A DNA stretch of 64,000 bases. Origin: Bacillus pumilus (GTDB lineage Bacteria > Bacillota > Bacilli > Bacillales > Bacillaceae). A program made the position numbers and the translations under genes. Where the stretch lies: NCBI RefSeq assembly GCF_900186955.1, contig NZ_LT906438.1:3224001-3288000 (forward strand). Reading direction: 5' to 3'. The notes beneath the pieces were generated by a model. The model did no database searches and was not told the DNA's origin. It was given only the letters and a program-made list of their open reading frames with translations. Positions 3,459 to 61,765 of the stretch are shown here, piece after piece. The first letter of the stretch is position 1, and every line of letters begins with the position of its first letter.

Positions 3459-3474
3459 ACACAGGGGTTTTCTT
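3445..3474. terminator. Terminator between pdaC and ABC-F gene
   Basis: Inverted repeat CCCCTGTG (3445-3452) / CACAGGGG (3460-3467) followed by TTTTCTTT. The left arm lies inside the last codons of pdaC, and the convergent ABC-F gene ends right after it, so the hairpin probably serves both. Confidence 0.85.
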
Positions 3475-5033
3475 TATGACTCCAAAGATTTCTTTTGTTT
3501 CAATAATGCTTGAAATGTCTCCTCCAGCTCCTGAGACGGCTCAATACTTAACCGGCTGAGCACTTCAGACAGCTGTAAATCAATTAACAGAAGCTCCTCT
3601 TCTCTTTGGGTCACAGCTGGTTTGTCGCCTTTTTGTTTATACGCTTCATATGTTCCACAAAAAGCTTCAATACGCTTTTCATGAACATGGAAAATGCGAG
3701 TCGCCACATTCTCAATCAGTCTGCGATCATGGGAAACGAACACAACCGTACCCGGGTAATCCTTCAATAGACCTTCAAGCGCTTCAACTGCCGCCAGATC
3801 TAGAAAGTTCGTCGGTTCATCCAGCATGAGAACATTGGCATCGCTGACAAGCAAGGACGCCAGCATGGTCTTCACCCTTTCTCCTCCGCTTAACACCCCG
3901 ACAGGTTTATACACGTCACCCCCTCGAAACCCAAGTCTCGCTAAAACCGTTCGTACCACTGTCTCATCTTGAACTGCCTCTTTCAGCGCATTTTGTAAAA
4001 TCGATTCATCTACCTTTAATCCTGAAAGATCTTGACGAAAATAGCCGAGCTTGACAGCTTCTGAGCGAGAAACTCCGGGATGTCCATTTACCAGCATTCG
4101 GAGAAATGTCGTTTTCCCGCTCCCATTCTTGCCAATGATGGCGACCTTGTCCCCGCCTCTCACTTCCACATTCGCCTGTTTCCAAAGCAATTGATCGCCC
4201 GCCTTGCCATCTACATTTTTCACTCGCAAAATGGTACGGCTCGCTACTTCCTTCATTGTATGCTGCGTCATTTGAATGGGCTGAATGTCTTTTACTTTCT
4301 CAACCTTTTCTAATTTCTCCATCCTTGTTTCAATCGATTTGGCTGTTTTTTGCAGCTTTTTTTGCTTATTTGCATAGTAGGGCTTTGCAATTTTTGGCCC
4401 TGAGGATTTCAGCTTTTGGGATGGCTTTGTAGCTTTGTCGGCTTTTTTCTTTTTCTTTTCTAGCGCATGCTCTAACTGTTTTTTCTTTTGGGTATAAGCT
4501 TCGTACGCTTCCACCTGCTGACGATGCGCCAGCTCTTTTTGATGTGCAAATTGCGTGTAGTTGCCTTTGTATTGATTGAGCTGTCCATGATCCAGCTCCC
4601 AAATCTCCGTACATACCGCATCTAAAAAAGCACGATCATGTGAAACGACAATGAGGGCTCCTTGATAATTGTTCAGCTTCTCTTCCAGCCACTCAATGTG
4701 CTCTGTATCTAAATGAGTCGTTGGTTCATCTGCTAATAAAAGGGCAGAAGGACGGTTTAACGCGCTTTCAATATACGTCTGAGTCATCTCACCACCACTC
4801 TGTATGCCATCCGCTTGTTTTAGCTGAGGAAGCAGTGTGCAGGTCGTTGTGGCGGCAAACGTGCCACTGTCTGGTGTCTCTTGCCCCGCGAGCACATGCA
4901 ATAACGTCGTTTTCCCGCTTCCATTTGCCCCGACAAGTCCAATGCGGTCACTTTGATGGATGGCAAGTTCCTCAATATCAAATAACAATCGATCTTTTCG
5001 AAACACCTTTAACTGATTGGCTTTTACTAACAT
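3474..5033 (-). CDS. ABC-F ATPase, antibiotic-resistance type (VmlR/Vga/Msr-like)
   Basis: A soluble protein with two ATPase domains and no membrane segment. Start set at ATG 5033, after the strong Shine-Dalgarno AAAGGAGAG, giving 519 residues; the longer upstream frame runs through a terminator hairpin. First domain: Walker A GANGSGKTT (~35-43), degenerate signature QSGGE, Walker B LLLADEPTTHLD. Then a long Lys-rich coiled-coil linker (~190-280, the region that reaches into the ribosome). Second domain: GKNGSGKTT, LSGGE, VLMLDEPTNFLD. ABC-F proteins of this type displace lincosamide, streptogramin A, pleuromutilin or macrolide drugs from the ribosome. A housekeeping ABC-F (EttA/Uup-like) is the alternative. 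The divergent first signature, the linker and the attenuator leader favour resistance. Confidence 0.85.
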   Translation of the reverse strand: MLVKANQLKVFRKDRLLFDIEELAIHQSDRIGLVGANGSGKTTLLHVLAGQETPDSGTFAATTTCTLLPQLKQADGIQSGGEMTQTYIESALNRPSALLLADEPTTHLDTEHIEWLEEKLNNYQGALIVVSHDRAFLDAVCTEIWELDHGQLNQYKGNYTQFAHQKELAHRQQVEAYEAYTQKKKQLEHALEKKKKKADKATKPSQKLKSSGPKIAKPYYANKQKKLQKTAKSIETRMEKLEKVEKVKDIQPIQMTQHTMKEVASRTILRVKNVDGKAGDQLLWKQANVEVRGGDKVAIIGKNGSGKTTFLRMLVNGHPGVSRSEAVKLGYFRQDLSGLKVDESILQNALKEAVQDETVVRTVLARLGFRGGDVYKPVGVLSGGERVKTMLASLLVSDANVLMLDEPTNFLDLAAVEALEGLLKDYPGTVVFVSHDRRLIENVATRIFHVHEKRIEAFCGTYEAYKQKGDKPAVTQREEELLLIDLQLSEVLSRLSIEPSQELEETFQALLKQKKSLES

Positions 5034-5064
5034 CCAACCCTCTCCTTTCGTATCAGGAGACATG

Positions 5065-5094
5065 AAAAAGCCTCCCATTCTCAGAATAGGAGGC
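5065..5094 (-). terminator. Leader attenuator of ABC-F gene
   Basis: On the minus strand GCCTCCTATTCT and AGAATGGGAGGC pair over 10-12 bp (one U-G pair) and are followed at once by TTTTT (5069-5065). It is an intrinsic terminator lying inside the leader, 31 bp before the ABC-F start codon, so transcription must pass it for the gene to be expressed. Its 5' arm can instead pair with an upstream segment (5206-5213). Confidence 0.85.
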
Positions 5095-5178
5095 AAAATG
5101 GTGTACAAAAATAAGCGGATCAATTCCAGATGACGTGCCGTTCCTATCTGAACACACACATCCCCCGTATCAATCTTC

Positions 5179-5244
5179 TCATTCTTTGATTCCCAAGCTG
5201 TACCATCCTATTCCGAAGCTAAAAAATGAAAACGCAGCAAACAT
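5179..5244 (-). CDS. Candidate leader peptide of ABC-F gene
   Basis: A 21-codon frame (ATG 5244, TGA 5179-5181) in the transcribed leader encodes a hydrophobic peptide beginning MFAAFSFFSF. It is placed so that its own codons (GGA ATA GGA) contain the segment that can pair with the 5' arm of the attenuator. The Shine-Dalgarno (GGTTTG) is poor, so translation is uncertain. Other very short frames with better upstream purines lie at about 5280-5320. If translated, drug-stalled ribosomes here would alter leader folding, as known for other ABC-F and erm leaders. Confidence 0.4.
   Translation of the reverse strand: MFAAFSFFSFGIGWYSLGIKE
5206..5213 (-). promoter_or_regulatory. Putative anti-terminator segment
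   Basis: Minus-strand GAATAGGA is an exact complement of TCCTATTC (5091-5084) in the 5' arm of the attenuator hairpin. Pairing of the two would break the terminator. It lies inside the candidate leader peptide frame. Confidence 0.5.
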
Positions 5245-5350
5245 GGCAAACCAATCGTTTGCTCACTGCCTTCGTTTTTTCATTTTGCTTACAGGTCATA
5301 GGATTAGTACTTCATTGCATTGGGTCACCCTTCCGTCGTTTGTTACGTTT

Positions 5351-5379
5351 ACAATAAAAGATTGGTTATTTTTTGTCAA
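5351..5379 (-). promoter_or_regulatory. SigA promoter of ABC-F leader
   Basis: -35 TTGACA (5379-5374), 17-bp spacer, -10 TATTGT (5356-5351) on the minus strand. The predicted start is near 5344, which gives a leader of about 310 nt before the ABC-F start codon. Confidence 0.7.
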
Positions 5380-5524: not shown

Positions 5525-6694
5525 TCATGATTGAGTCTGTTTCGTCTGCATCCATTGATCAATCGTCCGCAATGCTTTATCTGTTCCACCTGCTGTTTGG
5601 AAGCTTTCTTCAATTTTTTCGATTCCAGCACGGTATGTGTTACTTCCCAGAACAGATTCCACGGTTTCTCTTAGCTGCTTTGCTGTCAGTTGGTCTTTAT
5701 CAAGTGCACGGGCAGCAGATAGCTCGGTCAGTCTTTGTGCGACCATCGGCTGATCTTTGTCGACCGGAATGACAACCATCGGAACGTGATAATGAATGCC
5801 TTCATTGACACTGTTCATTCCGCCATGCGTCACAAACACATCTGTCAGATCAAGCACTTCAAGCTGCGGCACATAAGGCTCGATCAGAAAATGAGAAGGT
5901 GCTTCTTTCAAGAGAGACCGATCCACTTTTTCACCTGTTGCGAGCACCACTTTTCCATCAAAGTCGGCAAAGGCATCTATACACATATTAAAAAATGCCT
6001 CTGTATCCCCAAGAACGGTGCCCATCGAAATAAAGACGACTTTATCTTGCTCAAGTGCTTCCAGCGGGAAATCATGCTGATCTGCCCTTTTTAGAAAGCT
6101 CGGTCCAATGAAAACAAATGAATCGTTCACTGCATCGACAGACGGCTGAAAATACTCACTTGTATACACGATATTCAGTTCTCCGCGATTTTTCATGAAT
6201 TGCATCAAACGCGTTGGCTGAACGCCAAAACGCTCTTGTATGCTTTCTAACAGATGATCGGCTTTCTCATCTTTTCTGTATAGCGGTGTATCAAAATGCG
6301 CCTCTTGCAGCACAAAGGATGGGTTTGAACCGATCCCTGGAATTTGTAAATAATCTCGAACAAGCTCCCCTGCCCCAAACATATCAAAATAGACAAAATC
6401 AAATGAATGCTGCTGAGAAAGTATTTCCACCACCTCTAAAATATCAAATGATGTTTGCAGCATGGCATGAAAGAATGGCTGCATGGAATCGAGATTTCCT
6501 TCATCCACGTGTAATGTCCGAATATAGTCTGGATGTTTATGTACGTGAGCGCCTAAGCGTTTGATTCGTTCCTCATAATGTACAGTTGTGACCGCATGCA
6601 CTTCATCTCCACGATCCGCCCAAGCTTTGATGATCCCTAACATAGGATTCACATGCCCTTCAGCGGGAAATGTAATCAATAAAATCTTTGCCAC
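5525..6694 (-). CDS. yjiC: Macrolide-type UDP-glycosyltransferase (MGT, GT1 family)
   Basis: 389 residues, beginning at GTG 6694 with GGAGGGA seven bases upstream. The N-terminal MAKILLITFPAEGHVNP is the acceptor-domain opening of GT1 enzymes. The C-terminal donor-binding region has VFISMGTV, PYVPQLEVLDLTDVFVTHGGMNS and HYHVPMVVIPVDKDQP, the UDP-sugar binding PSPG-like segment with the HGG core. Family members move glucose from UDP-glucose to macrolides, flavonoids or other phenolic acceptors in the cytosol. B. subtilis YjiC (392 residues) is the closest match I recall. The neighbouring ABC-F ATPase makes an antibiotic-inactivation role plausible, but the acceptor is unknown. Confidence 0.85.
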   Translation of the reverse strand: MAKILLITFPAEGHVNPMLGIIKAWADRGDEVHAVTTVHYEERIKRLGAHVHKHPDYIRTLHVDEGNLDSMQPFFHAMLQTSFDILEVVEILSQQHSFDFVYFDMFGAGELVRDYLQIPGIGSNPSFVLQEAHFDTPLYRKDEKADHLLESIQERFGVQPTRLMQFMKNRGELNIVYTSEYFQPSVDAVNDSFVFIGPSFLKRADQHDFPLEALEQDKVVFISMGTVLGDTEAFFNMCIDAFADFDGKVVLATGEKVDRSLLKEAPSHFLIEPYVPQLEVLDLTDVFVTHGGMNSVNEGIHYHVPMVVIPVDKDQPMVAQRLTELSAARALDKDQLTAKQLRETVESVLGSNTYRAGIEKIEESFQTAGGTDKALRTIDQWMQTKQTQS

Positions 6695-61489: not shown

Positions 61490-61765
61490 AAAAGGCCAGT
61501 CATCTCCTTGAAGAGACGACTGACCTTGCAACCGCGTTACCACTCTTATTGACTCAGACATAGCTGAATCCAACTTGAAACCCGATAACGGAGGTCACAC
61601 GTAAAGACTTACTATTCATTCAGTCTTGCCGCTCCTTGAGCGAGTTCAATGATCCGTTTTACTGCGTTGCACCAACCCGCAGCTCTCTTAAAAAACGGAT
61701 ATTCATTTACTATTCTCAAGTCAAAGCGTTTTATAGTCAATTTGTCTATTTATAAAAGATTTTAT
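61490..61765 (-). promoter_or_regulatory. T-box riboswitch, Leu (CUC) specifier
   Basis: Stem I: base helix CTTGAG/CTCAAG; specifier loop with AGTA on the 5' side and GAA-CTC-G on the 3' side, so the codon is CTC (61644-61642); distal part with GGTTGGTGCAA. The T-box sequence AGAGTGGTAACGCGGTTGC (61546-61528) is followed by a terminator GTCAGTCGTCTC...GAGATGACTGGC and TTTTT (ending near 61490). Uncharged tRNA-Leu(GAG) would pair with the CUC codon and allow read-through into yvbW. Confidence 0.92.

Follow-up and report, generated by a model that had tools for sequence, protein, structure and literature searches.

A putative ribosome-sensing attenuator before a Vga-like ABC-F gene of Bacillus pumilus, and related leaders before other resistance genes

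Induction of vmlR in B. subtilis is controlled by a 3-codon upstream open reading frame (uORF), an anti-antiterminator, an antiterminator and a terminator, as the text of Takada 2022 describes (PMC9226507). The same text reports that the uORF is required for lincomycin induction and that the uORFs MDN and MDK are at least as good as MIN, while MRK is less so (PMC9226507). In this published description SL-2 is a NusG-dependent pause hairpin and SL-4 hides the Shine-Dalgarno sequence (SD) of the resistance gene. Attenuation of staphylococcal vga(A) is stated in the text of PMC12421871, and Obana and colleagues list uORFs for CplR, VmlR2 and LsaA (PMC10201436).

The leader discussed here lies in a stretch of 64,000 nucleotides from Bacillus pumilus, the whole of which is called the window. 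The original prediction, made from the letters of the window, regarded the leader as undescribed. This may hold for this copy, but its kind is described, in the vmlR text of PMC9226507. A leader of the vmlR kind being already published, the window's leader joins a known kind, and it is very probably an attenuator of the vmlR/vga(A) type, which senses ribosomes and acts on transcription (Table 1).

Table 1. Features of the leader and its gene in the window, and loci of the MFS family found behind related leaders
Feature	Position or loci	Strand	Description
Vga-like ABC-F ribosomal protection gene	3474-5033	minus	519 aa, ATG at 5033
SigA-type promoter	5379-5351	minus	TTGACA 5379-5374, spacer 17, TATTGT 5356-5351
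uORF Shine-Dalgarno GGAAGGGTGA	5334-5325	minus	kept across genera
MQ frame ATGCAATGA	5320-5312	minus	overlaps MKY start by ATGA
uORF ATGAAGTACTAA (MKY), proposed sensor	5315-5304	minus	3 codons, runs into segment A
Segment A TAATCCTAT	5306-5298	minus	pairs with B as anti-antiterminator
21-codon frame of the original prediction	5244-5179	minus	judged no functional peptide
Segment B GAATAGGATGG	5213-5203	minus	partner of either A or C
Segment C GCCTCCTATTC	5094-5084	minus	terminator 5' arm; B's partner in the antiterminator
Segment D GAATGGGAGGC	5080-5070	minus	terminator 3' arm, then U-tract 5069-5065
Hairpin E/F	5060-5041	minus	E TCTCCT 5060-5055 with F AGGAGA 5046-5041
MFS-family loci	L144, L154-L157, L161-L164, L166-L171, L179, L182, L183		
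MFS-family loci, continued	L203-L206, L231, L232, L254, L255 (L256 partial)		

The gene downstream was expected to be a resistance-type ABC-F gene, and this is borne out by the NCBIfam model for general ribosomal protection, NF000355, which the protein passes with 502 bits (cutoff 380). Its best model is NF000170 Vga, with 704 bits, just short of the cutoff of 725, and the nearest solved chain is 7nhl. The gene is the sole close copy in its own genome, where the next match has 32% identity and 137 bits. For the comparison of leaders, 150 genomes, the window's own included, were searched with the protein and 36 matched at E <= 1e-100. The loci compared were the window's and the best 29 others of the matching genomes, 13 of them near relatives and 16 more distant. 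The 14 near-relative leaders are those of the window and of the 13 nearest same-genus loci (L009-L021), whose ABC-F proteins are 81-96% identical. Upstream of the leader in the window, on the same strand, is a macrolide-type glycosyltransferase gene at 5528-6694 (TIGR01426, 302.6 bits, cutoff 260). Many near relatives have a different gene end upstream, as judged by eye, and traces of that gene end are seen near 5420-5380 in the window. A T-box leader is also present in the window at 61509-61733 on the minus strand (126 bits).

Both the promoter and the intrinsic terminator (5065-5094) that had been predicted are present. If the consensus is the only criterion, chance gives about one such site in every 800 bases. 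Across the 14 near-relative leaders the promoter's columns are invariant at six of six positions of the -35 box and five of six of the -10 box. The RNA would start near 5344. The terminator hairpin C:D has an energy of -16.6 kcal/mol. GAATAGGA (5213-5206) was also claimed to be the exact complement of TCCTATTC (5091-5084), and it is. An 8-nt complement alone is weak, as 93 of 5000 first-order random leaders contain one of at least 8 nt. Two observations mark this one as real: it is part of an extended duplex, CGGAAUAGGA with UCCUAUUCUG, and relatives show coordinated changes in B and C. The MKY uORF and its SD, segment A and the SD-hiding hairpin had been overlooked. The stop codon of the uORF is the UAA of segment A, and GUAC at 5310-5307 pairs with GUAC at 5203-5200. 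Hairpin E/F can mask the SD of the ABC-F gene, and freed D could pair with E. No other long stretch of the leader is as well conserved as the block that runs from the SD through the uORF to A, in which 38 of 39 columns are invariant in the 14 near-relative leaders versus 41 of 93 in the spacer from B to the terminator.

When the leader is folded without a ribosome, A:B and C:D form, C:D at 0.99. Masking 5331-5300, as a 70S ribosome at the MKY start would, gives B:C at 0.98 and 1.00 in RNA ending at 5083 and 5078, respectively, both of which stop short of a complete D. At equilibrium the full-length RNA again favours C:D (0.81 versus 0.19 for B:C) when the ribosome sits at the MKY start, and B:C must therefore form first and persist. 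With D complete and the ribosome at the MKY stop, B:C is 0.96. Since C:D is regained with the ribosome at the start but not at the stop, timing and ribosome position matter. In the minimum free energy structure the cores of A and B are paired with each other in 114 of 114 leaders, all picked by a pattern that contains both cores.

The most likely sensor is the MKY uORF and not the 21-codon frame, to which the original prediction had given this role by supposing that a stall near the start of its peptide frees GAATAGGA. The longer frame does exist. It is open in all 14 near-relative leaders, of which 13 start it with ATG and L021 with GTG, and 8 of the 14 more distant leaders readable by the rule used hold some frame of 15-32 codons through B. 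A ribosome on its start also gives B:C at 0.51, with A:B at 0.35, in RNA ending at 5078 only. However, no SD is evident by eye ahead of it, its start and length differ among those 8 distant leaders, and the other 6 have no such frame. Its distinct codon changes in the 14 near-relative leaders are 11 nonsynonymous (the start codon change included) to 1 synonymous, and the frame fails to display the Erm/MsrD-type trait of a longer peptide under amino-acid constraint. The folding proposed with the original prediction went against it, as a 70S ribosome on the 21-codon start mostly leaves A:B in place at the five other lengths (0.70-0.71, the value of 0.71 being scored over 5302-5296 rather than 5304-5298, which is 5 of the 7 positions) and C:D ends at 0.97-0.99 at both lengths containing all of D, so that the terminator forms. 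A ribosome translating through the frame would, moreover, cover B. The 21-codon frame was rejected as sensor on these grounds, and it is extremely unlikely to have that role. An attenuator with competing pairings and with GAATAGGA as an antiterminator strand still stands, as does the open frame itself, but it is MKY that would free B.

MKY is kept in 13 of 13 near relatives. Of the 16 more distant ABC-F relatives, which were selected by their protein, 14 also carry a 3-codon uORF at this position, with the peptides MKC, MIF, MKY, MDC, MYN, MKN, MKF, MKL, MIL, MDN and MDQ. The exceptions are L033, with two codons, and L036, with none by the rule and a seven-codon frame by eye. The letters of A and B in L033 differ (CTTCCGTAC, GTACGGAAAG) yet still match each other, as seen by eye. 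When A and B were searched for with a pattern that did not require an ATG, 25 distinct sites turned up, spread over 24 of 299 genomes (strands merged); 24 of the sites were already in the order-wide uORF + A ... B set, and an ATG stands in register at 25 of 25 of these loci on at least one strand. Could the sensor be the MQ frame instead, or MQ and MKY coupled through their shared ATGA? MQ is kept with the same SD in all 14 near-relative leaders, but in the wider set it is found at 4 of 116 places, each being the window or a near relative, whereas a 3-codon frame at the MKY register is widespread; MQ as the sensor, by itself or coupled with MKY, is very unlikely. A switch in which A, B, C and D answer a ligand or a protein rather than the ribosome would suit a leader RNA that is long and structured and whose occupancy by ribosomes is a prediction. 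Against this reading, whose probability is next to negligible, Rfam 15 gave no match to the leader at the gathering score and none credible at E up to 10, the conserved block is the one that holds the uORF in register, and the genes downstream are mostly of ribosome-drug resistance or efflux type. The one candidate for an Rfam-known element in the leader, a 12-bit HepC_CRE match, was rejected as a chance match.

With MKY as the sensor, we infer that the uORF is translated, that ribosomes stall there in the presence of certain drugs and that termination is thereby relieved. Without drug, ribosomes would start at MKY (5315), complete three codons and depart; A would pair with B, leaving C free, C:D would form and RNA polymerase would halt at 5069-5065. 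In the presence of a drug that arrests ribosomes on the first codons, a ribosome would stay in place over A. By analogy with vmlR, the inducers may be lincosamide, pleuromutilin and streptogramin A. B, once freed, would capture C ahead of the synthesis of D, and transcription would run on into the gene. D, left without its partner, may in turn pair with E, which would expose the gene's SD as a second layer. For the window, this corrects the sensor peptide and yields a testable prediction of the drugs that would switch on an intrinsic resistance gene.

Sequence and comparison together show the segments, their covariation and the in-register uORF. Covariation was measured with a swap test, in which the duplex energy of each leader's own B with its own C was compared with that obtained when C was dealt out among leaders in 20,000 permutations. 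For 108 unique B:C pairs the self mean was -8.09 versus -5.40 (sd 0.21), and 0 of 20,000 permutations did as well; the pattern used for the terminator left out 27 of 109 leaders in the first B:C comparison and, in a relaxed form, 21 of 148. The count was again 0 of 20,000 for 35 distinct B types and for 33 pairs before non-ABC-F genes, and the signal was weaker, 139 of 20,000, for the 15 unique pairs whose loci had been selected solely by their ABC-F protein. The cores of A and B are fixed by the search pattern, and A:B covariation was computed for their flanks only; the outer flank (105 unique) and the inner flank (107 unique) each gave 0 of 20,000. The original prediction was to be given up if GAATAGGA and TCCTATTC did not covary among relatives, and the B:C pairing to which they belong does covary. 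The E:F and D:E tests gave 0 of 20,000 each. The E motif is present in 62 of 125 leaders and in 0 of 33 before non-ABC-F genes. The permutations ignore kinship, and taking one leader per distinct B or A flank reduces this effect without removing it.

The same module is found before other genes. The genome survey used a uORF + A ... B pattern, of which A, B and the ATG are part; outside it are the C partner, the 5' flank of B, the SD, the type of gene downstream and the uORF at the 25 loci of the ATG-free pattern. The order yielded matches in 88 of 397 genomes and the class in 34 of 398, some genomes being in both draws, and a reversed control pattern gave 0 in every genome listed. Of 120 places, 116 were read, and the remaining L022, L024, L026 and L032 are Vga-like. 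Codon 2 of the uORF varies over the 116 (K 57, I 35, W 10, D 6, N 4, S 2, T 1, R 1). A gene follows at 114 of the 116, and 113 of these genes are of resistance or efflux type. ABC-F genes follow at 77 places, by best match among five reference proteins of which one is ABC-F, and one MFS family at 24. The others are Vat (4), LmrB-like MFS (3), Tet/Bmr-like MFS (2), Vgb (2), Cfr (1) and an SDR oxidoreductase (1). The two places without a gene are L154 on the plus strand, antisense of a true match, and L190, opposite a coding frame.

Examples of these genes were checked against NCBIfam models. Cfr scores 604 bits (cutoff 468) and three of the four Vat proteins 338-351 bits (cutoff 300). The Vgb proteins score 389 and 396 bits, under the cutoffs of 600 of the Vgb models, the only ones matched. 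One LmrB-like protein has 482 bits, under 800, and passes the general EmrB-type model; both Tet/Bmr-like MFS proteins are under their cutoffs. One member of the MFS family matches TIGR00900 with 156 bits, under the cutoff of 320. Proteins of this family have roughly 400-450 aa and also stand behind the leader on P. megaterium plasmids. Only MFS or permease names, none specific, were found for the family among the 120 of 2949 matches listed. It is predicted that the family exports drugs that block early translation. The SDR oxidoreductase gene (L209:1773-2579) stands behind a complete copy of the leader. L158, L188 and L228 have only short ABC-F frames after the leader (211, 156 and 143 aa), and the genes may be broken. 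In L029 and L197, and by eye in L030 and L031, a second A-like and B-like segment lies between the first B and the terminator. Doubled leaders such as L029 and L197 may work as a nested relay; folding covered L029.

The module was not found before three Priestia vgb-vat operons (L244, L245, L257), nor before vgb(A), vat(E), cfr(B), cfr(D) and an msr gene. The linearised records of vga(C) (L246) and cfr(A) (L249) hold about 100 and 0 bases upstream, respectively, and both stand outside this list. A weak, decayed-looking copy of the module with no ATG (L249:1154-1259, 21.7 bits) lies downstream of cfr on the S. aureus plasmid pSA8589. Plasmids and phages searched by BLASTN with the entire leader gave no match. 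A module this short and variable escapes such a search, as is shown by the matches of a covariance model on plasmids.

This model, R1, contains 9 base pairs only. Among its 39 training leaders are that of the window (as L132) and the vga(A)-like L221, but none of vmlR. Phylum-wide, with stricter filters, R1 had matches in 10 of 398 genomes, one of them that of the window. Eight are in the window's class, and the module is therefore mainly one of Bacilli. Beyond leaders trained on or near those, the finds precede genes for VmlR, two VmlR2-like, one Lsa-like and one CplR-like ABC-F protein, Vat and MFS (names by eye). In named records, the leader of B. tequilensis vmlR scores 54.7 bits without vmlR in the training, and a B. 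thermotolerans ABC-F leader 57.0 bits. The score of the S. epidermidis vga(A) leader, 70.8 bits, is not independent, since training row L221 is identical to it at 242 of 245 positions. Three P. megaterium plasmids score 78.5-84.7 bits, two with annotated MFS genes and one with a partial unannotated MFS match. In a set of ABC-F loci, R1 matched 2 of 21 picked as mainly Bacillota and 0 of the other 59, some of which have little upstream DNA. L243, an ABC-F locus outside the window's class that is CplR-like by eye, scores 37 bits.

It is likely that the leader belongs to a single portable RNA sensor for drugs that arrest ribosomes on their first codons. Such a sensor would have been inherited from a common ancestor and moved between resistance genes that are themselves unrelated (ABC-F, Vat, Vgb, Cfr, LmrB-like and other MFS pumps), in Bacilli and in a few of their neighbours; it would constitute an unnamed RNA family and in some copies be doubled into a longer relay. 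Sharing is suggested by the letters that the SD, A and B have in common before unrelated genes. No published account of one module serving unrelated resistance genes was found in the literature searched, which lay mostly outside subscription papers. The main text of PMC9226507 has 0 mentions of LmrB, MFS, Cfr or Vat, and the portion of PMC10219788 that was covered gives no account of such sharing. If the same RNA controls ribosome protection, rRNA methylation, streptogramin destruction and drug efflux, it marks resistance genes. Genes of uncharacterised role behind the module, the MFS family and the SDR enzyme, would then become testable resistance candidates, and a portable sensor would make the RNA family a pointer to new resistance genes, the MFS family first.

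How does the window's leader compare with the described systems? Like the leader of C. difficile cplR, it has a short uORF (MRI in cplR), an anti-terminator, a terminator and control of the SD, but in cplR, according to the text of PMC10201436, the terminator itself hides the SD. With the published vmlR leader it shares an SD, a 3-codon uORF inside the anti-antiterminator, an antiterminator, a terminator and an SD-hiding hairpin. Traits of the vmlR/vga(A) type seen in the window are a short 5' uORF with an SD, an anti-antiterminator placed so that a ribosome on the uORF would disrupt it, an antiterminator set against an intrinsic terminator, an SD-hiding hairpin and a sequence relation to known members. 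Letters of B. tequilensis vmlR that match the window's are ATGATTAACTAATCTTATTTT and AATAGGATTAG. The uORF is MIN in vmlR and MKY in the window, and the window has a longer spacer between A and B, in which a separate inner stem lies. The partner of C in the window is the 5' face of B, whereas the C of vmlR (CTAATCC) resembles A, and B:C pairing in vmlR is near zero by the same measure (-0.7 kcal/mol). The vga(A) leader of S. epidermidis pC100MK3 shares the SD, ATGATTAACTAATCCTATTTT, CAGGATAGGAT and CCTCCTATTCTGAATAG with the window but has the uORF MIN and is plasmid-borne. Erm leaders need a drug- and sequence-specific nascent peptide. The text of PMC9226507 says the same of MsrD. In MsrD and Erm leaders, as proposed for the window, a drug-stalled ribosome controls an attenuator (text of PMC10314930). 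In the window's module, by contrast, codon 2 varies and the stall is expected at initiation.
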